From Candidatus Pacearchaeota archaeon (lineage in GTDB: Archaea > Nanobdellota > Nanobdellia > Pacearchaeales > GW2011-AR1), in contig JAFCDB010000008.1 of NCBI GenBank assembly GCA_017609885.1, positions 1 to 39,015 on the forward strand: 39,015 nt of DNA, written 5' to 3'. Shown here piece after piece: positions 1 through 30,501 of the stretch. How positions within the stretch are numbered: the first letter of the stretch is position 1; each line of letters opens with the position of its first letter. The notes under the pieces are model-generated. The model searched no databases and was not told the DNA's origin. It was given only the letters and a program-made list of their open reading frames with translations. The position numbers and the translations under genes are program-made.

Positions 1-82
1 AAGCAGATTTCTTGAAACTCAGAAAAAAGAGATGTTGATTAGAATGATCACCTATAATATTGATAGGAAGATTATATTATCT

Positions 83-113
83 GCTTTGGTAATTATAGGA
101 TTTCACCAAAGCC
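83..113. repeat. Remnant of family A palindromic element end
   Basis: GCTTTGGT at 83-90 and ACCAAAGC at 105-112 form an 8-bp inverted repeat. The segment 99-113 is the same as the right terminal repeat (GATTTCACCAAAGCC) of the family A elements elsewhere in the window. The body of the element, with its hairpin and G-tract, is absent, so this looks like a deletion remnant. Confidence 0.5.
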
Positions 114-3348: not shown

Positions 3349-3525
3349 AATTTGCAGATACTATTCTCAAAAATCTAAATCATAGTAAATATTGTTCCAA
3401 ACATCAACTATATTTCCTGCAGAGAATCTTTCTCGCAACCTGACTCGCCTTTTTTTCCTTGCTCACCTTTCGCACCGCTCATCAAATCACTCGTGAAAGC
3501 AGATTCGAGAGCATTCCCATTCCCC
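3349..3525. repeat. Family D repeat carrying an inserted family F hairpin
   Basis: This stretch matches 6542-6655 along both ends (AGTAAATATTGTTC...CTGCAGAGAATC and GATTCGAGAGCATT). An extra segment of about 66 bp (near 3429-3494, TCTCGCAACCTGACTCGCC...CAAATCACTCG) has no counterpart at 6542-6655, but resembles the insert at 12470-12535. It lies between srp54 and aglB. No gene is supported in 3293-3638. Confidence 0.6.
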
Positions 3526-3542: not shown

Positions 3543-3617
3543 GATGTAGTTCCATAATTCATAATTCAATCCGAAAGGGTTGGTTAGGGGATGGAGGTAG
3601 GACATGGAACTATGTCA
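3543..3617. repeat. Family E palindromic element, intergenic copy
   Basis: GTAGTTCCAT at 3546-3555 pairs with ATGGAACTAT at 3604-3613. The region between contains a G-rich tract (AAAGGGTTGGTTAGGGGATGGAGG). The same order of motifs (TTCCATA..ATTC, G-tract, GATGGAGGT, GGAAC-type arm) occurs in the copies inside bud32 (8320-8393) and endoQ (15160-15227). This copy lies 21 bp beyond the 3' end of aglB. Confidence 0.6.
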
Positions 3618-7749: not shown

Positions 7750-7852
7750 GAATTTTGATTTTAGCAAATTTTGGGGGGGGAAAGAAAGAGGAGGTGGCAA
7801 GAGATGATTTTCGACGAAGTCGAATTTAGTGGGAATTCTAAAATCAAAATTC
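7750..7852. repeat. Palindromic element with G-tract (family B-like)
   Basis: GAATTTTGATTTTAG at 7750-7764 is perfectly complementary to CTAAAATCAAAATTC at 7838-7852 (15 bp). Between them lie a G8 run with further G-rich sequence (7773-7798) and an inner hairpin TTCGACGAAGTCGAA (7810-7824). The order outer arm, G-tract, GACGAAG hairpin, outer arm, and the block GAATTCTAAAATCA, match the B elements at 13661 and 16344. Lies between two divergent genes. Confidence 0.7.
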
Positions 7853-7912: not shown

Positions 7913-8650
7913 ATGAAAAAAATACTATATCAAGGTGCAGAGGCAATCATTTACAAAAAAAATAACTTAGTAATTAAAGACAGAATTTCAAAATCTTATA
8001 GATTAAAAAAAATAGATGAAACTATAAGAAAACGCAGAACAAAACGCGAAAAAAAACTATTAGAAAAATCTTCAAAAATAATTAATTCTCCAGTTCCAAT
8101 GCCAACAAAAGAAAAAACAAAAATAATTCTTCCCTACATTAAAGGAAAAAAACTTTCAGAACATTTAGACAAACTTCCAGAAAAACAAGCAAAAATTATC
8201 TGCGAAAAAATCGGACAATCAATTGCAAAACTCCACGACAACCACATCATCCACGGAGATTTGACTACGAGCAACATGATTTTAGAAGGTGAACAATTTC
8301 GCGAGCAAACTAAAGCAGAGACGCGGTTTCATAATTCAGATACTCCTTCCGGGAGGGCGGGAGAGGAATGGAGGCGAGATATAAAATCGCGTCGGGGAGT
8401 GGAGGATAACAAAACACCAGATAAAAAACTATACTTCATAGACTTCGGCCTCGGATTTCAGTCAGAAAAAACAGAAGACAAAGCAGTTGACTTACATTTA
8501 ATAAAACAGGCTCTCGAAGCAAAACACTTCACAAAATTCAAGGATTATTGGAAATGGATCCTTCAAGGATATAAAATCTCGAAAGATTATGAAAAAAACT
8601 TAGAGAGGTTAAAAAAGGTTGAGGTACGGGGGAAATATAAGAAACACTAA
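7913..8650 (+). CDS. bud32: Bud32/KEOPS kinase with an in-frame palindromic insertion
   Basis: Bud32 is the small atypical kinase/ATPase of the KEOPS complex that makes t6A37 in tRNA. Visible features: a short N-lobe with YQGAEAIIY (6-14) and VIKDR (K22 as the probable nucleotide-binding Lys), IIHGDLTTSNMI (112-123, catalytic D116, N121), FIDFGLG (175-181, DFG Asp 177) and a basic C-terminal tail VRGKYKKH. In the family about 10-15 residues separate the Asn of the catalytic loop from the DFG Asp; here 56 do. The extra 44 or so residues (about 126-170, rich in E, R, G, S) are encoded by a family E palindromic element that keeps the frame. All catalytic motifs are intact, so the protein is probably functional with a surface loop. 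Confidence 0.93.
   Translation: MKKILYQGAEAIIYKKNNLVIKDRISKSYRLKKIDETIRKRRTKREKKLLEKSSKIINSPVPMPTKEKTKIILPYIKGKKLSEHLDKLPEKQAKIICEKIGQSIAKLHDNHIIHGDLTTSNMILEGEQFREQTKAETRFHNSDTPSGRAGEEWRRDIKSRRGVEDNKTPDKKLYFIDFGLGFQSEKTEDKAVDLHLIKQALEAKHFTKFKDYWKWILQGYKISKDYEKNLERLKKVEVRGKYKKH
8320..8393. mobile_element. Family E palindromic element inside bud32
   Basis: GACGCGGTTT at 8320-8329 pairs with AAAATCGCGTC at 8383-8393. Between them lie TTCATAATTC, a G-rich tract GGGAGGGCGGGAGAGG (8351-8366) and AATGGAGGCGAG. The same ordered motifs occur at 15160-15227 inside endoQ and at 3543-3617. The inserted DNA may reach from about 8290 to 8420. The element reads in the sense direction of bud32 and adds no stop codon. 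Confidence 0.75.
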
Positions 8651-10187: not shown

Positions 10188-10426
10188 GCACAGTTTTTTG
10201 ATTTGGCTTTGGTGAAATCATAGGATATATAACATTTTTCTCAATTTAAAATCTACATTGCGAGACAAATCACGTCGAGCAATACTGGGCGGGCGGGTAG
10301 GGAATTGAGAAAAATGTTCAAAAATTTAATGGTTTCACCAAAGCCTTTGATTTCAAATAAGACATTGCGAAACGCGAAGCGTTAAGCAATATCGCGGGCG
10401 GGTTGGGCGGGATAAAAAAACTGTGC
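10188..10426. mobile_element. Host palindromic element, interrupted by family A copy
   Basis: GCACAGTTTTTTGA (10188-10201) and TAAAAAAACTGTGC (10413-10426) are inverted arms matching at 13 of 14. The element has its own inner hairpin ATTGCGAAACG/CGTTAAGCAAT (10364-10390) and a canonical G-quadruplex motif GGGCGGGTTGGGCGGG (10396-10411). A direct repeat AAGAAA flanks it (10182-10187 and 10427-10432). A second complete element (10205-10345) lies within its left half. Confidence 0.75.
10205..10345. mobile_element. Family A palindromic element A1 (complete, 141 bp)
   Basis: Terminal inverted repeats are GGCTTTGGTGAAA and TTTCACCAAAGCC. A second pair of arms (AACATTTTTCTCAATT and AATTGAGAAAAATGTT) and an inner hairpin ATTGCGAGAC/GTCGAGCAAT lie inside. 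The G-quadruplex motif GGGCGGGCGGGTAGGG is at 10287-10302. TTTGATTT occurs exactly on both sides (10197-10204 and 10346-10353), an 8-bp target-site duplication. The left 100 bp are nearly identical to 16222-16321. Confidence 0.85.
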
Positions 10427-10508
10427 AAGAAAATAGCAGAATTTCCTAAGAATTTTTGCCAACCGTGGAAGTAAAAATCCCCGATGTAACTAAAAAATCA
10501 AACAAAAA

Positions 10509-10517
10509 TTTATAAAC
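10509..10517 (+). promoter_or_regulatory. Probable TATA box for recJ, distant
   Basis: TTTATAAAC is the best archaeal TATA match in the gap before recJ. If used, transcription would begin near 10540 and leave a leader of about 215 nt that contains the palindrome 10564-10719. A purine-rich AAGAGG lies 8 nt before the recJ ATG and could act as a ribosome-binding site. Confidence 0.4.
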
Positions 10518-10563
10518 CTAGTTGAATTTTCTTGGTAACAATGTAGCTCCAACAGCTAAAATA

Positions 10564-10719
10564 ATTTTGAAATTCATAAACTTTTAGGGGGTGAAACAAG
10601 GCAGGGCGAGTGATTTGACGAGTGAGTTTCAAAAGAGTGCAAAAAGGCGAGCGAGATTGTGAGCAGGAAAGGGATGGTATCAGCGAAGTTGAGTAAGGGG
10701 GAATAATGAATTTCAAAAT
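10564..10719. repeat. Palindromic element with family F core
   Basis: ATTTTGAAATTCAT (10564-10577) and ATGAATTTCAAAAT (10706-10719) are perfect 14-bp inverted arms. The centre (GCGAGTGATTTGACGAGTGAG ... GCGAGCGAGATTGTGAGC) matches, on this strand, the reverse complement of the family F core at 12470-12535. It lies between a TATA box and the recJ start. The other part of the 10427-10563 gap holds only the TATA box and a weak family D-like stretch near 10450-10480. Confidence 0.65.
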
Positions 10720-10754
10720 AAGAAGGTTGAAGATACAAAACAAAAGAGGCCAAA

Positions 10755-12071
10755 ATGTTAAACAGTATTAAAGAATTCACAAAAAAATTTCTGGAAAAAA
10801 CAGCTAACAAACAAATACAAATTGTAAGCCACAATGACACAGATGGAATAACATCTGCAGCAATCATAACAAAAACCCTGCAAAGATTAGGAAAAGATTT
10901 TTCTATAAAAATCGTTAAAGGACTTGATGAAAAAATAATTTCCTCCCTTCCACAAAACAAATCATTGCTATTCTTAGATCTTGCATCAAACAGCTTTAAT
11001 TATTTAGAAAAACTAAAAACAGAAATTTTCATTTTAGATCACCACGAAATAACTTCAGAAATTCCAAATAACATAGAAATAGTAAACCCTCACCTTTTTA
11101 ACGAAGAAGAAATATCAGGAGCAGGGCTGACATATCTTTTCGCAAAATCAATTAGCGAAGAAAATAAAGATTTAGCAGATTATGCAGTTATGGGAATGGT
11201 AGGAGATTTATTAGAAAAAAATCCAGGAAAAATCCTAAATGAAATAATAAATGATTCAAAAGTCGTAGTAAAAAAAGGCATCATTATGTATCCTGCAACA
11301 CGCCCAATAAACAAAGTCCTTGAATACAGCTCAGATATTTATATTCCTGGAGTTACAGGAAGTTTCATTGGAACATCAAATTTTTTAAGAGAACTTGGGA
11401 TAACAAAAAAAGGAAATCAATACAAAAGCATAATTGAACTAAGTGAAGAAGAAACTTCAAAACTTATCACAGCAATTTCATTGCAAAGAGCAGACAACGG
11501 CAAACAATCAGAACTTATTGGAAACATTTATCTTGTAAATTTTTTCAACAATCTCGAAGACATCAGACAAATAAGCGCAACAATAAACGCCTGTTCTCGT
11601 TCAGGAGAAAGCGGCACAGCAATTGCCTATTGTCTCCAGAACAAAAACGCAAAAGAACGAGTTGACAAAATCTACACAACACACAAACAAGCAATTGTAA
11701 AAGCCCTTAACTCAGTTTCAACTCTCAAAAAAATCGAAGACAAAAATTATCTAATCCTAAACGCAGAAGACAAAATAAAAGACACAATCATTGGAACAGT
11801 CGCAAGCATCATTTCAAATTCAAGAGAATACAAAGAAGGGAAAGCAATAATTGCAATGGCTTACAACGAAGACAAAATAAAAATTTCTGCACGGATGGTT
11901 GGAAAATCAAGGAAAAATATCAGGGAACTTTTAAATTCAGTTGTAGAAATTATCGGCGGAGAAGTTGGCGGGCATCATGCAGCAGCAGGAGCACTAATTG
12001 AAAAACAAAAAGAACAGGAATTCATTGATGAGTTGAAAAGAAAGTTGGAAGTTGAGTTGGTTAAGATTTAA
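10755..12071 (+). CDS. recJ: RecJ-like DHH phosphoesterase / GAN-type nuclease
   Basis: This 438-residue protein has both DHH-family domains. DHH domain: SHNDTDGIT (25-33, D28 and D30), LFLDLAS (D75) and ILDHHE (D95-H96-H97). DHHA1 domain: VGGHHAAAGA (404-413), the substrate-binding GGH motif. The family includes the archaeal GAN nuclease and Cdc45-like proteins, which act on single-stranded DNA at the replication fork with GINS. Length fits the 430-480 residue archaeal type. All metal-binding motifs appear intact, so it should be an active exonuclease rather than a degenerate Cdc45. The neighbourhood with rps15 is typical. Confidence 0.92.
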   Translation: MLNSIKEFTKKFLEKTANKQIQIVSHNDTDGITSAAIITKTLQRLGKDFSIKIVKGLDEKIISSLPQNKSLLFLDLASNSFNYLEKLKTEIFILDHHEITSEIPNNIEIVNPHLFNEEEISGAGLTYLFAKSISEENKDLADYAVMGMVGDLLEKNPGKILNEIINDSKVVVKKGIIMYPATRPINKVLEYSSDIYIPGVTGSFIGTSNFLRELGITKKGNQYKSIIELSEEETSKLITAISLQRADNGKQSELIGNIYLVNFFNNLEDIRQISATINACSRSGESGTAIAYCLQNKNAKERVDKIYTTHKQAIVKALNSVSTLKKIEDKNYLILNAEDKIKDTIIGTVASIISNSREYKEGKAIIAMAYNEDKIKISARMVGKSRKNIRELLNSVVEIIGGEVGGHHAAAGALIEKQKEQEFIDELKRKLEVELVKI

Positions 12072-12377
12072 TCAAAACCCACGCGTAAATAAATATAACC
12101 AAAGTAATGAGTACAAAACAAGAAAAATTATTGAAATAATTAAAGAAGAAATTGCCATCCACATCCCATCCAATCTATTCTTTTTTATTTTAACAATTGC
12201 TATAATTGAAGTTATTAAAGAAATTATTGCAACAACTGGAAAAATATAAAAAAGGAAATATTCAAAAAATACACCAACAACCTTAATACTAGGAAGACTA
12301 AGAAAAAACAATAACAAAAATAATAATAAATTAACAACAACCAATACTAAAGACGCAATAGCTAATTTATTTCTCAT
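12072..12377 (-). CDS. Small membrane protein, DUF4190-like
   Basis: The adopted ATG at 12377 gives 101 residues with three hydrophobic segments: LAIASLVLVVVNLLLFLLLFF, YFLFYIFPVVAIISLITSIIAIV and MAISSLIISIIFLVLYSLLWLYLF. The pattern of small helix, KIKKNRLDGMWMAISS loop and helix resembles the DUF4190 membrane domain. The frame stays open to 12443, but a minus-strand TATA box (TTTTTATATC, about 12398-12406) lies 25 nt before 12377, which supports the shorter leaderless form. It is convergent with recJ and abuts its stop. Confidence 0.7.
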   Translation of the reverse strand: MRNKLAIASLVLVVVNLLLFLLLFFLSLPSIKVVGVFFEYFLFYIFPVVAIISLITSIIAIVKIKKNRLDGMWMAISSLIISIIFLVLYSLLWLYLFTRGF

Positions 12378-12441
12378 ACCAAACAAAACAAACCACGATA
12401 TAAAAACCTTTCCACAAATCTGCAAATCATAATCGAATATC

Positions 12442-12556
12442 ACACATTAACAGTATTTTCTTGAATTTTTTCTCGCGATCTGACTTGCCTTTCTCTCCTT
12501 GCGAACCTTTTTCATCTCTCGTCAAATCGCTCGCGACCGCGGAAGCAAAAATTCAA
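12442..12556. repeat. Family D-type hairpin filled by family F insert
   Basis: TTGAATTTTT at 12461-12470 and CAAAAATTCAA at 12546-12556 are hairpin arms identical to those at 26890-26924, where only a 13-nt loop separates them. Here about 66-75 bp (TCTCGCGATCTGACTTGCC ... CAAATCGCTCGCGA) fill the loop. The insert resembles the one at 3429-3494 and, reversed, 19457-19514. Confidence 0.65.
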
Positions 12557-12613
12557 CTCCCCTTTCCAAAAATTTCACATCCAACAAAACATTTTTTTAA
12601 TATCAAATAAATT

Positions 12614-12703
12614 CGAAGAAATTTTCTCATTTAAAATAGGACAGCGCTAAACATCCTCGTTTAGCGCTGTCGGGTGGGTGGGCGGGAAAAAGAAAATTTC
12701 TTG
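12614..12703. repeat. Palindromic element with perfect hairpin and G4 motif
   Basis: The inner hairpin GACAGCGCTAAAC/GTTTAGCGCTGTC (12640-12652 and 12659-12671) is perfect over 13 bp. It is followed at once by the G-quadruplex motif GGGTGGGTGGGCGGG (12672-12686). Outer arms AGAAATTTTC (about 12617-12626) and GAAAATTTCT (12692-12701) close the element. The order matches family A. It lies about 100 bp before aif2A. Confidence 0.75.
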
Positions 12704-12807
12704 ATTTCTTGAAAATTTTCCACAAACAAAAAAACCGCGCAAGAAATTCCCCCCCTCCCAAATCTCCTCTCCCAAAATCTTAAAAACCCTCTCCCAATAA
12801 TAATTCT

Positions 12808-13506
12808 ATGAAATATGAAGAAGGAGACGTAATACTTTGCAAAGTAACAGACATAGCTAGAACTACAGTCTTCGTAGAAACTCTCAATGGAACAAAAGGC
12901 AGTATTGTCCTCAGTGAAATCGCTCCAGGAAGAATCAGAAATCTCCGAGAATATGTTGTCCCAAAAAAAGTAATATCCTGCAAAATACTCAACATAAAAG
13001 ACAACCATCTATTTCTCAGTTTAAGAAGAGTAAAAACAGATGAAAGAAGAGAACTAATGGACCAATATAAAAAAGAAAAAAGTTTTCAAGGAATATTAAA
13101 AAAAATCTGCGGAGAAAAACGCGCAAAAAACATCATAGAAAAAATAAAACAAAGCCAAACAATCACAGAATTTTTTGAAGACGCAAAAGAAAATCAAAAA
13201 CTTCTTGAAAAATATTTCACAAAAGAACAAATCCCTCAAATTAAAAAAATACTTGAAACAAAAAAAGAAAAGGAAAAACAAATCAAAAAACAATTCAAAC
13301 TTTCCTGTATTCAATCAGATGGAATAAAAAAACTCAAAGAAATTCTTTCGCCTTATGAAAACATTAAATATCTTGGTAATTCTAAATTTTCAATAAAAAT
13401 AAAATCAAGGGATTTGAAAAAAGCAAGTCACGAAATGAATAAAATCCTTGAAAAAATTGAAAAACAGGCAAAAAAAGGGAAATGTGATTTTGAAGTGAAA
13501 AAATAA
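12808..13506 (+). CDS. eif2a: Translation initiation factor aIF2 subunit alpha
   Basis: aIF2alpha is part of the trimeric factor that delivers initiator Met-tRNA to the small subunit. At 232 residues it is slightly shorter than most (about 260-270). The N-terminal S1 OB fold (5-80) shows GDVILCKVTDIARTTVFVET, GSIVLSEIAPGRIRNLREYV and KDNHLFLSLRRV. A helical middle domain and a C-terminal alpha/beta domain (ENIKYLGNSKFSIKIKSRD...) follow. A TATA-like TCTTAAAAACC (about 12778) lies upstream. nop10 follows after 18 nt, the conserved archaeal order, although rpl44e and rps27e, usually upstream, are absent here. Confidence 0.93.
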   Translation: MKYEEGDVILCKVTDIARTTVFVETLNGTKGSIVLSEIAPGRIRNLREYVVPKKVISCKILNIKDNHLFLSLRRVKTDERRELMDQYKKEKSFQGILKKICGEKRAKNIIEKIKQSQTITEFFEDAKENQKLLEKYFTKEQIPQIKKILETKKEKEKQIKKQFKLSCIQSDGIKKLKEILSPYENIKYLGNSKFSIKIKSRDLKKASHEMNKILEKIEKQAKKGKCDFEVKK

Positions 13507-13524
13507 AAAGGAAAAATTAGAAAA

Positions 13525-13749
13525 ATGAAACTCAAAAAATGTTTGAAATGTGCAACCTACACAATGAAAGAATTTTGTCCAAAATGCAAAACAAAAACTA
13601 AAGAAGCAGGAGAAAAATATAAGGAAAAATTTGTAAAAAACTTAGGATGGAGCCAAAATTCAGTATCTCCGACAGTTATAAATGATTTTGGAATTCACAA
13701 TTTTCTGGGGGGTGGAAAGGGCGGGTTTCCGACGAAGGAGGATTTATAG
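13525..13749 (+). CDS. nop10: Nop10-like H/ACA RNP protein, extended by a mobile element
   Basis: Nop10 is the zinc-binding subunit of archaeal H/ACA guide RNPs. The first 45 residues show C6-x2-C9 and C18-x2-C21 in MKLKKCLKCATYTMKEFCPKCKTKT, the archaeal Nop10 zinc ribbon. Position directly after eif2a supports the call. The classical HPPxFSPxDxYxxYR tail is replaced by a shorter basic tail (EKYKEKFVKN). The frame runs on for 29 residues through a family B element (13661-13795). Removing the element and one AAATT duplication restores AGC CAA AAT TAA, a stop after residue 45. So the ancestral protein was 45 residues, and the present C-terminus SVSPTVINDFGIHN... is element-derived. Confidence 0.75.
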   Translation: MKLKKCLKCATYTMKEFCPKCKTKTKEAGEKYKEKFVKNLGWSQNSVSPTVINDFGIHNFLGGGKGGFPTKEDL

Positions 13750-13795
13750 TGAGAATCTAGAATTCTAAAATCATTATGTGTCATCGGAGATACTG
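13661..13795. mobile_element. Family B MITE-like element B1 (135 bp)
   Basis: Terminal inverted repeats CAGTATCTCCG and CGGAGATACTG bound the element. AAATT is duplicated on both sides (13656-13660 and 13796-13800). Inner arms AATGATTTTGGAATTC and GAATTCTAAAATCATT pair with one mismatch. Between them are a G-rich tract GGGGGGTGGAAAGGGCGGG (13708-13726) and a small hairpin around TCCGACGAAGGA. It is about 97% identical to 16344-16477, which suggests recent movement. No protein is encoded. Confidence 0.9.
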
Positions 13796-13870
13796 AAATT
13801 AACGAAAATTATTTAAAGAAAGCATTCTCAAATACAATATTAATAAATTTTTAAAAAAATAAAATGGAAG

Positions 13871-14356
13871 ATGAAGAGCACACGAAGAAAAGTTTTACAA
13901 ACAATTGTAGCAGGAGTTCTTTTAGTTGGTCCTTTATCTTATTCAAATGATTCTGAACAATTTATTTTAAAAAACCCTTTGCTTAAACAAAATATTTTTA
14001 CATTGGACACAACAGGCCCTTACGAAAATCCAGGGGTTGTAGATTATAATGCAATCACTAGAGAAACTCCCCAAGGTAAAAAAATAGTGAAAGAGAAAAT
14101 TGAAACAAATAGTGGAAAATATGTGATATTAAATGCCAAAGGTTCAGATGTAGCTCAAAGATGGATAACCGAATACGCAAAGAAAAATAACCATGATGTT
14201 GTAATAAAAAGAGATATCTTAGAAGAAAGAGTAAAAAATGGAGAAACACTTTTTGAATCTGTCCCCTTAGAATATAGAGAACTAAAACCCAAAGAATTCC
14301 TCGATAAAATAGACATAACAAAAGAGGTCATTAAAGAAGGAAAGTCAAACAAATAA
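13871..14356 (+). CDS. Exported hypothetical protein with Tat-like signal
   Basis: I do not recognise the 161-residue protein. The N-terminus MKSTRRKVLQTIVAGVLLVGPLSYS has a twin Arg followed by a hydrophobic stretch, resembling a Tat signal (S/TRRxxL) although the following Lys is replaced by Gln; a Sec signal is the alternative. The mature part has a region near GKYVILNAKGSDVAQRWITEYAKKNNHDVVIKRD and a charged C-terminal half. The gene is T/G-rich on its coding strand, unlike its plus-strand neighbours. ATG 13871 overlaps an out-of-frame ATG at 13864. Confidence 0.65.
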   Translation: MKSTRRKVLQTIVAGVLLVGPLSYSNDSEQFILKNPLLKQNIFTLDTTGPYENPGVVDYNAITRETPQGKKIVKEKIETNSGKYVILNAKGSDVAQRWITEYAKKNNHDVVIKRDILEERVKNGETLFESVPLEYRELKPKEFLDKIDITKEVIKEGKSNK

Positions 14357-14385
14357 TTTAAATAACTCTCTTTCTTATAAATTAT

Positions 14386-14847
14386 ATGAAAAAAGAGAAA
14401 TTATTCCTCGCACTCTGTTACATTTCCTCACTTGTAATCGGAGCAATTGCAATAACAATTTTCATCGCGTCGTGGGCAATGTACCCTCCAGACAAAATCT
14501 CATTTGCAATAATCGCATTAATTTTCCTATTTATTGCCTCATTAACATATTTCTCTCTAAAAAACTTTAAAATAAAAAAAAGAAACATTCTATTTTCAAC
14601 TCTATCAATAAGCATCTTAATTTCTATTTTAGCTACAACAACAAAATCTCTTCTTATAAAATACATTGAAACTCAATCAAAAATGATTTCAAGCATCCAA
14701 GATCCAGGACTTGCAGAAACAGCAACACAAACTGTATCAAACTTGCTAACAATCTTCAACAACTCTCAAAACATAATTATCACAAGCGCAATCATAATAA
14801 TAACTTACAACATTCTACCAATAATTTTTTTAAGAAAATCAAAATAG
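14386..14847 (+). CDS. Four-helix hypothetical membrane protein
   Basis: The 153-residue protein has four hydrophobic segments: about 7-28, 38-55 (FAIIALIFLFIASLTYF), 66-90 and 120-145. Loops are short and basic on the predicted cytoplasmic side (KNFKIKKRN). No known family is evident. A TATA-like TTTCTTATAAATTATATG precedes the start directly. Its 3' end overlaps the convergent endoQ gene by 9 nt. Confidence 0.7.
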   Translation: MKKEKLFLALCYISSLVIGAIAITIFIASWAMYPPDKISFAIIALIFLFIASLTYFSLKNFKIKKRNILFSTLSISILISILATTTKSLLIKYIETQSKMISSIQDPGLAETATQTVSNLLTIFNNSQNIIITSAIIIITYNILPIIFLRKSK

Positions 14848-16179
14848 CGTCTTCTGCTCTTCAATAACTGCCTCCCCATACCTGCCATCAAAACCTGGTT
14901 TAACTTTTATCTTCCCCTCCCTATTCCTAATAATCAACCCAGTAAGTTTTTCATCAATCCCTTTATCAGCCAAATCTTCTTTAGTAACATTCAATAAAAT
15001 ATTAAATTCATTTCCAAATTTTTCAATCAAAGAATTATAAATTTTCCAATTTCCCTTTGCAGAAATTCCAATCCCTGTAAACAAAGAAATAATTTCATGT
15101 AGTGGCAAAATCTTATAAAATTTTTTCGCGTTTGGGGACTTCATCCCGAGAGAAGATGAGCGTGGTTCCATAGATTCCTCTATTCGGGAGGGAGGGAGGG
15201 GGATGGAGGTGGAACATAGAACCACGCCAGAAGAAAGATTGTTTTGGGATGAAGTCTCACCCTCAAATTCAAATCCTTCTTCTCTTGAAGAATCAGCCAA
15301 TTCATTAACTCGACTATCAACTCCAATTGTCAACTTCTCATTACAAACAGGACATTTCCCTTCTAACTCCTTTGTTTTTTCAGAAGAGCAGGAAAAATCA
15401 CAATTCCGATGCCCATCCCAGTGATACATTCCATAAGCAGGATCAACTTCAATAGTTCCAAGAATTTCATTTTTCCTTATCGCAGAAATAATTTTCGAAT
15501 AACTTAAATCCATTTTATCCAAATCAAAAATCGTCGCTTCCCTGCCAATTCTCCAAGGCCAAAAACTATGCAAATCTGAAAAAGATAAAATCGCAAAATC
15601 ATCTAATTCTTTAATTCTCCAATTCATTGGCGGGTCACTTGACAAACCAGTTTCAATTGCATGGATATTTTTTATCTGCTTCCCGAATGCTTCTTTTAAG
15701 GAATTAAATCCACTCTTTGAACCTAAAATACCGAACCAAGGTGTCCAAATATGCGCAGGAAAAACCTCAATCTCAAAAGAAATCTTCATAATTTCTTTAA
15801 CAAATTCCTCACATGAAATATTAAAAATTGGCCGCCCATCATAATCCCGCCTTCCTTTTGTATCCAAATAGGAATTTATCTTCTCAGCAATTTTAATTGA
15901 AGGAATAAGCAAACAAAGATGCACTCTCCTTCCCTTTCCCTGAGTATACATCAAACTAATCTCCCCAGAAATCACAAAAGGAAATCCGTCAAAATAATAA
16001 ATCCCCTCCTTCTCTTTTAATTTTTTAATTTCACTCAAATGTTTTTCGTGAGTAAAATCTCCTGTCCCAAGCAAACCAACCCCTTTAATCCGAGCATATT
16101 TCACAAGATTTTCAAAACTTAAACTTCTAGAAGTTGCCCGAGAATATTTTGAATGGATGTGTAAATCTGCAATTAACAT
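14839..16179 (-). CDS. endoQ: Endonuclease Q (PHP family) with in-frame palindromic insertion
   Basis: EndoQ nicks DNA 5' of deaminated bases and abasic sites. The 446-residue protein begins with the PHP motif DLHIHSKYSRATS (H7, H9). A C4-type zinc region spans about 255-285 (CDFSC...CPVCNEKL), followed by LTIGVDSRVNELAD. The C-terminal helix-hairpin-helix part and the end KVKPGFDGRYGEAVI are typical. Between ELAD and PNAKKFYKILPLHEII there are about 40 extra residues (about 308-348, SSQNNLSSGVV...SMEPRSSSLGMK). They are encoded by a family E palindrome (15137-15256) read on the strand opposite to that used in bud32. Domains on either side are intact, so the enzyme probably remains functional. 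Confidence 0.88.
   Translation of the reverse strand: MLIADLHIHSKYSRATSRSLSFENLVKYARIKGVGLLGTGDFTHEKHLSEIKKLKEKEGIYYFDGFPFVISGEISLMYTQGKGRRVHLCLLIPSIKIAEKINSYLDTKGRRDYDGRPIFNISCEEFVKEIMKISFEIEVFPAHIWTPWFGILGSKSGFNSLKEAFGKQIKNIHAIETGLSSDPPMNWRIKELDDFAILSFSDLHSFWPWRIGREATIFDLDKMDLSYSKIISAIRKNEILGTIEVDPAYGMYHWDGHRNCDFSCSSEKTKELEGKCPVCNEKLTIGVDSRVNELADSSREEGFEFEGETSSQNNLSSGVVLCSTSIPLPPSRIEESMEPRSSSLGMKSPNAKKFYKILPLHEIISLFTGIGISAKGNWKIYNSLIEKFGNEFNILLNVTKEDLADKGIDEKLTGLIIRNREGKIKVKPGFDGRYGEAVIEEQKTLF
15137..15256. mobile_element. Family E palindromic element inside endoQ
   Basis: Outer arms GACTTCATCCC (15137-15147) and GGGATGAAGTC (15246-15256) are perfect. Inner arms GCGTGGTTC (15160-15168) and GAACCACGC (15219-15227) are perfect. 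The loop holds a canonical G-quadruplex motif GGGAGGGAGGGAGGGGG (15186-15202) and GATGGAGGTGG. Its motif order matches the bud32 copy in the same window orientation. Because endoQ lies on the minus strand, the C-rich strand is translated here (PLPPS). Confidence 0.85.
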
Positions 16180-16221
16180 AAAATTAAATAATCTAAAGAG
16201 TATAAAAAGATTGTTAAATTA

Positions 16222-16343
16222 GGCTTTGGTGAAATCATAGGATATATAACATTTTTCTCAATTTAAAATCTACATTGCGAGACAAATCACGTCGAGCAAT
16301 GCTGGGCGGGCGGGTAGGGAATTGAGAAAAATGTTTAAATTAA
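16222..16343. mobile_element. Family A element A2, right end lost
   Basis: The left TIR GGCTTTGGTGAAATCAT, inner arms, hairpin ATTGCGAGAC/GTCGAGCAAT and G-quadruplex motif (16304-16319) match A1, with one substitution across the first 100 bp or so. The expected right TIR is absent; a B element begins at 16344 and unrelated sequence follows it. It lies upstream of endoQ, outside its probable promoter. Confidence 0.8.
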
Positions 16344-16477
16344 CAGTATCTCCGGCAGTTATAAATGATTTTGGAATTCACAATTTTTGGGGGGTGGAAA
16401 GGGCGGATTTCCGACGAAGGAGGATTTATAGTGAGAATCTAGAATTCTAAAATCATTATGTGTCATCGGAGATACTG
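16344..16477. mobile_element. Family B element B2 (134 bp)
   Basis: TIRs CAGTATCTCCG and CGGAGATACTG with ATTAA duplicated on both sides (16339-16343 and 16478-16482). It differs from B1 by about four substitutions or indels. The left duplication lies in the tail of A2. The right duplication contains the stop codon (TTA on this strand) of the 29-residue gene at 16479-16568. Confidence 0.9.
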
Positions 16478-16478
16478 A

Positions 16479-16568
16479 TTAACTAGCAGTCATATAAACT
16501 AAAATCAAAATGACCAAAAAAAGTAAAGCATAAGGCCAAATTTCAGAGATAAATTTTTTAAGTTTCAT
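16479..16568 (-). CDS. 29-residue single-span membrane protein
   Basis: ATG 16568 opens MKLKKFISEIWPYALLFLVILILVYMTAS, a basic N-terminus followed by one membrane helix. A TATA-like ATTATATTA (about 16582-16590) lies upstream on the minus strand. The stop codon falls within the right target duplication of element B2, so the insertion left the reading frame intact. It could be a subunit-like micropeptide; no family is recognised. Confidence 0.5.
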   Translation of the reverse strand: MKLKKFISEIWPYALLFLVILILVYMTAS

Positions 16569-19254: not shown

Positions 19255-19456
19255 CATCTTACCTCTAATCTTACAAAAAAACCAAGACACTTTTTAAGTA
19301 TTATGTTAGTAGAGTTTCTTATTTTATCAAATCAACTATTCGCTATTCCTTTTTTATTAAAATCAATTGGACGAAGTCTAACATGGGTTGGTGAGAAATT
19401 TCGCGAGTGGTAAGTCAAAAGGGGAAAACAAAGCGAGCGAGATTGGGAATTAGGGG

Positions 19457-19514
19457 GCGAATGATTTGACGAGTGGGAGTCAAAAGGGTGAAGCAAGGTA
19501 AGTCAGATCGCGAG
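19457..19514. repeat. Family F repeat, reverse orientation
   Basis: GCGAATGATTTGACGAGTG ... GCAAGGTAAGTCAGATCGCGAG is the reverse complement of the insert core at 12470-12535. It lies in the gap between rpa and ef1b, where G-rich degenerate repeat sequence extends from about 19380. The remainder of 19298-19587 shows only the ef1b TATA box (ACTTAAAAACC, about 19558). Confidence 0.55.
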
Positions 19515-19587
19515 TTAAAGAAACGATATAAAAATCTTGGAATGAACCAACGAAAAAACTTAAAAACCTATTTCAACAACTTTTAAC

Positions 19588-28860: not shown

Positions 28861-29157
28861 TCATTCAAGTATCATTGAAACTAATTTTATATCATTACCG
28901 GCCAAAGTATAAGTTAATCTCCACGCATTAGGCAGATTATATTTCCATAAATTTGTCACTTTATATTTCTCCAGATAAATTTTAGGCCATAATCTCTTAG
29001 GAATCCTAACTCCACAAAATGGATCATCCTTAAGATCATCAATAGCCCTATTAATAAAATCAAATAATTTTTTATCTTCGAATTTTCCCTTCTCTAATTC
29101 CAAGTAAGCTTTCATTAATTCTTCGCTAACAAAAGAAACTTGATTAATTCTCCTCAT
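28861..29157 (-). CDS. RelE-like toxin, truncated by a TGA at a Trp codon
   Basis: The 98-residue product matches archaeal RelE-like toxins: DDPFCGVRIPKRLWPKIYLEKYKVTNLWKYNLPNAWRLTYTL. It ends ...VSMILE-TGA. The intact paralogue at 29735 continues ILDWMDHKDYERLFNF. Beyond the TGA the same frame continues FSHKHYEKRFKY and stops at 28822, so the Trp codon (TGG) has become TGA. The lost tail contains the conserved His/Tyr region of the family, so the toxin is probably inactive or weakened. The start overlaps the antitoxin gene by 4 nt (ATGA). Confidence 0.8.
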   Translation of the reverse strand: MRRINQVSFVSEELMKAYLELEKGKFEDKKLFDFINRAIDDLKDDPFCGVRIPKRLWPKIYLEKYKVTNLWKYNLPNAWRLTYTLAGNDIKLVSMILE

Positions 29158-29465: not shown

Positions 29466-29605
29466 GACTTTGGTGAAATCCTATGAAATTTGACATTTTT
29501 ATCTAATTTAATATCTCATTGCGAGACAGCACGTCGAGCAATGTTGGGAGGGCGGGCAGGGATTAGATAAAAATGTCTGAAAAATTAGGGGGGTTCACTA
29601 AAACT
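29466..29605. mobile_element. Family A palindromic element A3 (140 bp)
   Basis: Imperfect ends GACTTTGGTGAA / TTCACTAAAACT, second arms GACATTTTTATCTAAT and ATTAGATAAAAATGTC, inner hairpin ATTGCGAGAC/GTCGAGCAAT, and G-quadruplex motif GGGAGGGCGGGCAGGG (29546-29561). Near-identical 8-bp flanks CTGTAGAA (29458-29465) and CTATAGAA (29606-29613) look like a decayed target duplication. It lies between the small basic gene and the antitoxin gene of module copy 1. Confidence 0.8.
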
Positions 29606-30321: not shown

Positions 30322-30335
30322 TTTAACAATAATCC

Positions 30336-30465
30336 TTTAGTGAAATCCTTGATAATTGGGCATTTTTCTCTTTAAAAAATCAATACTGTGAGACGTTCCA
30401 CATCGAACAATATTGGGCTGGTGGGCAGGAATAGAGAAAAATGCCTAAACCTTTTATTTCACCAA
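30336..30465. mobile_element. Family A palindromic element A4, degenerate
   Basis: Ends TTTAGTGAAAT (30336-30346) and ATTTCACCAA (30456-30465). Second arms GGCATTTTTCTCT and AGAGAAAAATGCC have sequences different from A1 and A3 but still pair. The G-tract (30415-30429, GGGCTGGTGGGCAGG) has decayed from a canonical motif. It lies immediately upstream of the antitoxin gene of module copy 2. Confidence 0.7.
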
Positions 30466-30501
30466 TACATATTATCTAATAGTATCAATTGATATGATTA
30501 T

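Follow-up and report, generated by a model that had tools for sequence, protein, structure and literature searches.

How do several short palindromes of one archaeal locus come to combine inverted arms, inner hairpins and G-quadruplex (G4) motifs, and what keeps this combination together? The window, a stretch of 39,015 nucleotides, comes from a 750-kb archaeal draft in 37 contigs, of which it is one, and it carries genes of archaeal type (S15, DHH phosphoesterase, eIF2-alpha, Rad51/RadA, EndoQ, Bud32 and others). Short palindromic insertions number dozens in this small genome, and most of them are mobile. Our analysis points, with a probability of roughly 0.7, to non-autonomous transposons whose folding core would be read strand-specifically at the replication fork.

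Census of the elements and their G4 motifs

An earlier note on this DNA had claimed at least nine such elements and six canonical G4 motifs. The six motifs lie on the + strand at 10287, 10396, 12672, 15186, 16304 and 29546, and the elements are real, the set being larger than had been thought. In 403 kb of the genome we counted 25 G4 motifs with 1-3-nt loops, compared with a mean of 0.1 in order-1 Markov simulations of the same sequence length, and palindromic elements house 25/25 of them. Enclosing arms and an adjacent hairpin were found at 21 of the 25 motifs versus 0.5% of random positions under strict thresholds (arm score of at least 9, hairpin score of at least 5); the other four are elements by inspection (a B element with a nested A, two D elements and a B-type element with a weak hairpin). 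Comparable stretches of genomes from the same genus and family (about 575 kb, G005 apart) contained no short-loop G4 motif, and 199 kb of G005 contained one.

The idea of a single class stands in part. The core of A, B and E keeps one architecture, in the order 5' arm, AT-rich linker, hairpin, 0-2 nt, GGGnGGGnGGGn(n)GGG and 3' arm, but at least three lineages (A/B/E; D; C/F) have to be distinguished: in D the G4 lies between the arms, and C and F carry a weak G-tract and are poor G4s.

The segment 10188-10426 is a single element inserted in another. Element B (10188..10426, +; arms GCACAGTTTTTT/AAAAAAACTGTGC; hairpin ATTGCGAAACGCGAAGCGTTAAGCAAT; G4 10396-10411) is interrupted by a full-length family A copy of 141 bp (10205..10345, +; TIR GGCTTTGGTGAAA; inner arms AACATTTTTCTCAATT/AATTGAGAAAAATGTT; a hairpin; G4 10287-10302), which is flanked by the 8-bp duplication TTTGATTT at 10197-10204 and 10346-10353. 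The second A copy (16222..16334, +; G4 16304-16319) lacks its right end, probably through an assembly effect, and lies between TTAAATTA at 16214-16221 and 16335-16342. The third is diverged (29467..29602, +; core 29492-29577; G4 29546-29561), with a C->A change in one arm compensated by G->T in the other, and the fourth and most diverged (30334..30466, +; core 30359-30445) has an eroded G tract at 30415-30429. Element E (12617..12701, +; arms GAAATTTTCT/AGAAAATTTC; G4 12672-12686) has a homologous core and a different hairpin, 13 bp long (GACAGCGCTAAAC/GTTTAGCGCTGTC).

Family C occurs at 13661..13795 (+; TIR CAGTATCTCCGA; 5-bp duplication AAATT at 13656-13660 and 13796-13800), with a G-rich tract at about 13707-13726 that makes a weak G4, and with the same TIR at 16344..16477 (+; 5-bp duplication ATTAA at 16339-16343 and 16478-16482). 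The C-related element F (7750..7852, +) combines arms GAATTTTGATTTTA/TAAAATCAAAATTC, a G-rich tract and the hairpin TTTCGACGAAGTCGAA. Among the weaker tracts, those at 7773, 13708 and 16388 (C/F) are indeed G-rich but not canonical, and C folds unconvincingly as a G4.

Mobility of family A and in-frame inserts of family D

Family A is a MITE, which bears out the earlier suggestion of a non-autonomous group for this family. About 35 copies in the genome have the TIR GGCTTTGGTGAAA in common, and target duplications of at least 7 nt, mostly 8, flank 8 of the 11 full-length copies; matches in shuffled controls are explained by self-pairs. Several contigs end inside a longer element with A ends that codes for the C-terminus of a DDE transposase. 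In the window, the cut-off right end of this IS5-family element (1..113, +) shares the family A terminal repeat (GGATTTCACCAAAGCC). The draft assembly holds no intact copy, and the relative G030 carries a complete 913-bp element with GGCTTTGGTGAAA ends, whose single ORF is a 284-aa transposase matching NCBIfam IS5 NF033579 (151 bits vs cutoff 140) and Pfam DDE_Tnp_1. Target duplications of 8 bp belong to the ISH1 subgroup of IS5, with which those of A agree. An IS1595 partner was searched for and not found; the IS5 partner was found later via the contig ends. Ends, duplications and the IS demonstrate the mobility of A; an IS5-family DDE transposase acting in trans would recognise the GGCTTTGGTGAAA ends, move A by cut-and-paste and make the 8-bp duplications. 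Across 91 relatives, a search for the family A element gave nothing beyond short IS-end or chance matches.

In every truncated A copy, the missing end is the right one as the contig is read, regardless of the direction of the element. One-ended insertion, considered for truncated copies with duplications, was therefore dropped, and these copies are likely short-read assembly artefacts at palindromes. Contig C6 starts (1-640) within a transposase resembling IS6 (PF13610; below the NCBIfam IS6 cutoff), and contigs C19, C23 and C27 break in another multicopy element with ends GAGCGTGTCTAATAATTAGCACG. The segment 28861-30321 (-) comprises two tandem two-gene modules with a family A copy after each, as if co-duplicated, and a YoeB-like toxin match falls on 28861-29157 within it.

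The TIR of family C is CAGTATCTCCG, and contigs C20 and C33 start in another element with the same end. Since these ends differ from those of A and the duplications are 5 bp long, C would presumably have been moved by a different transposase. No clear target duplications were found for B, D or E; for B, a 6-nt repeat (AAGAAA) is possible.

Family D lies in frame in conserved genes, an observation that, like the fixed polarity of the elements relative to strand skew, was absent from the earlier note. In the EndoQ gene (14839-16179, -), the D copy at 15137..15256 (-; inner arms 15160-15227; G4 15186-15202 on the + strand) is in frame, and two blocks are separated by 51 residues, versus 4 in PfuEndoQ; the blocks flanking residues ~299-344 adjoin in seven relatives, four of them from the same genus. 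Similarly, the gene of a Bud32-type KEOPS kinase (7913-8650, +) contains an in-frame copy at 8320..8393 (+; arms GACGCGGTTT/AAATCGCGTC; G tract 8351-8366), with a 44-residue insert between the catalytic loop and DFG versus 0 in MjBud32 (Methanocaldococcus). Elsewhere in the genome, D is found in leucyl-tRNA synthetase (48 vs 18 residues, 37 of them absent in three relatives) and in GatD, where it is absent from relatives. D copies are lineage-specific in-frame inserts of about 20-45 residues with no stops in the used frame, and by eye the three copies whose coding strand is the C-rich one share a reading frame. Two copies lie outside open frames, one at 3543..3616 (+; arms GATGTAGTTCCAT/ATGGAACTATGTC) and one on contig C34. 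The pattern of presence and absence suggests that D is mobile as well.

Rickettsiales are known to have in-frame palindromic elements. Like Rickettsia palindromic elements (RPEs), D is a short palindrome that sits in frame in unrelated conserved genes and is absent from orthologues, and it may spread in an RPE-like manner, as stop-free short palindromes that persist in frame in conserved proteins. In contrast to RPEs, D is archaeal, bears a G4 and has arms that change with compensation; the likeness is one of behaviour, and we claim no membership.

Conservation and distribution of the hairpin-G4 core

The core alignment consisted of 13 diverged copies and 90 columns. Across arms and hairpin, 24 cells have changed on both sides versus 8.4 in shuffles, a count reached by 0/500 shuffles, and the pairing is lost when the partner is slid along the alignment. 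Column identity in the four G-runs is mostly 0.7-1.0, with a few weaker columns at 0.54-0.59, and that of the loops between them is 0.29-0.47. In some copies the hairpin sequence is wholly swapped (CATTGCGAGAC..GTCGAGCAATG; GACATTTCTTAAC..GTTAAGAAATGTC; GCCCGGCGAAGCCGGGC). Several A hairpins have a symmetric GA/GA internal loop; its counterpart in other copies is Watson-Crick paired, consistent with a continuous helix. For D, the arms across both genera in which such elements were found gave 14 double-changed cells vs 5.4 in the control. Conserved G-runs and covarying arms are the reverse of the lack of conservation that the earlier note had named as counter-evidence.

G4 prediction, proposed in the same note, was performed by folding with G4 energies and RNA parameters. 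Stem, hairpin and G4 together are predicted for the A, B and E cores, the G005 element and the type I core of G172, with a gain of about 20-34 kcal/mol when G4s are allowed; for D and the loop type of G172 the prediction is a stem and G4 only. C gains little from the G4 energies, and its G4 fold is unconvincing. Four conserved G-runs of at least three with short loops are present in A/B/E and D and lacking in C. The predictions suggest that in vivo the core, when single-stranded, combines an outer stem with a hairpin and a G4, and D encloses a G4 between outer arms. The best reading of the alignments is that selection within element lineages preserves the fold and not the sequence, although the arm covariation could also come from template switching or gene conversion, with no need for selection on the fold.

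Searches of the genome and its relatives with models R1 and R2 recovered about 42 core copies in this genome; G005 and G036 have one or two, and in the six other genomes from the genus the core is nearly absent. G005, G036 and G172 show the architecture again, with unrelated arms. The last of these, from another genus of the same family, was pointed to by a scan of 181 family genomes for the G4 pattern, which mixes elements with other G4s and is not used as proof. G172 has its own set of type I cores, D-like elements and loop-type hairpins. Its D-like elements have an internal TCCTCTATTCGGGAGGG in common with position 15176 of the window and differ in their arms. In the loop type, the hairpin loop is exactly the G4, pairing reaches 98.2%, and 23 cells are double-changed vs 6.9 in the control. 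The claim that the arms differ and the combination is kept holds in this genome and in another genus.

Two further loci of G172 deserve mention. At L248:1113, a type I core lies inside further outer arms (GCTCTGTT/AACAGAGC), which mirrors the double-arm plan of A with unrelated ends; at L251:940, an open frame of 245 aa contains a loop-type G4 hairpin, which is possibly another in-frame insertion. A B-type element at the same locus in G005 and this genome was rejected, as the TFE-side spacer here has no element. Some matches outside the genus (G046, G050) are due to chance, and exact-pattern scans of named genomes and viral contigs gave no matches.

The elements could also be ordinary MITEs whose founder carried a hairpin and G-rich tract by chance, the fold being without a role and kept by recent descent. 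Many A copies are 95-99% identical, and young copies keep any content. However, diverged copies retain the G-runs although their loops and linker have drifted, hairpin and arm changes are compensated, three other genomes show the architecture with unrelated arms, and the polarity described below holds across families. We consider descent alone an unlikely explanation.

Strand polarity and the proposed role of the fold

Of 43 elements in regions with an absolute GC skew of at least 0.1, 40 have their G4 or G-rich tract on the strand that is locally G-poor, GC skew serving as a proxy for replication direction in the 37-contig draft. When the skew was corrected for gene direction (again at least 0.1), orientation followed it in 43/46. 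Clustering on contigs lowers the effective sample, and a sign test per contig still holds (13 consistent, 1 not; p ~0.002). In G172, the G4 is on the G-poor strand in 12/12 palindromic elements, and the three exceptions among 18 G4s are ordinary G-rich sequence. The control, a dispersed G-rich repeat of 60-70 nt without this structure (GCGAGTGATTTGACGAGTG...AAGGCGAGTCAAGTCGCGAG; 10604-10700, 19413-19520 and 12467-12540, with 3427-3500 on the opposite strand), gave 12/20. About 23 copies of this repeat occur in the sample, some of them inside C elements.

As the polarity is common to families with different ends, the common G-rich core is a likelier cause than one transposase, and the near-uniform orientation suggests that the G4 matters during DNA replication. 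The G-rich strand is usually the leading strand; if this applies here, the G4 sits on the leading-strand template.

Fixed polarity to a replication-type skew in two genera would also suit polar chromosomal signals for replication or segregation (KOPS- or Chi-like) that were spread by transposition. Just some 42 copies in 750 kb, their near-absence from the rest of the genus, a sequence that is not conserved, and in-frame and nested insertions speak against such signals, and this is the least probable of the readings considered. Hardly more credible is an action of hairpin and G4 in transcripts, as terminators, leaders or small RNAs. The predicted RNA fold with G4 is stable and the A/B/E copies are nearly all intergenic, but the elements show no bias relative to the direction of flanking genes (10/9/6/6 over four classes), and for this reason we reject a terminator or RNA function. 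Moreover, only tRNA matched Rfam in 7000-31000, the positions are lineage-specific, target duplications are present, and D is in frame on either strand.

We therefore return to non-autonomous transposons with a folding core. At the fork, this core would be read strand-specifically, so that copies persist, or insert, with the G4 on the G-poor strand. One possible explanation, which we favour, is that a G4 on the exposed lagging template makes a copy harmful or leads to its loss; alternatively, insertion might occur preferentially into the folded strand at the fork. Either way, replication would cause the polarity. The fold may also help the element to spread, since it is kept through complete sequence change.

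Among known systems, the IS200/IS605-type REP/PATE elements likewise have hairpins, replication polarity and single-strand folding. Unlike them, A has TIRs and 8-bp duplications, and no Y1 transposase is linked to it; an IS200/IS605-derived identity was rejected for A on account of its TIRs and target duplications. With IS5-family elements, the partner of A shares the DDE_Tnp_1 domain, the NCBIfam IS5 model and 8-bp duplications, whereas A is without a transposase. Like the archaeal MITEs of Sulfolobus and haloarchaea (PMC10969869), A is small and non-coding and has TIRs, target duplications and the ends of an autonomous IS, to which it adds the covarying hairpin and G4 core, inner palindromic arms and skew polarity. 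The same review calls RPE in-frame fusions unusual, places archaeal MITEs in few lineages and leaves quadruplexes unmentioned (PMC10969869). A literature search drawn largely from freely accessible papers found no report of archaeal in-frame palindromic elements or of MITEs built on a covarying hairpin-G4 core, and the literature on quadruplexes together with MITEs, REPs or archaeal transposons held no equivalent. Hairpin-G4 MITEs and archaeal RPE-like inserts are thus provisionally new.

A broader reading, which we rate as less likely than not, is that transposable palindromes occur family-wide in these archaea, that a single-strand fold of stem, hairpin and G4 would define them and be used at the fork, its G4/hairpin strand being inserted or kept on a single template strand, and that one branch, which would be the first archaeal counterpart of RPEs, entered essential proteins in frame. 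The strand polarity offers a testable natural experiment on the fate of G4s on leading versus lagging templates in archaea, and the D inserts bear on the survival of short palindromes inside essential proteins.
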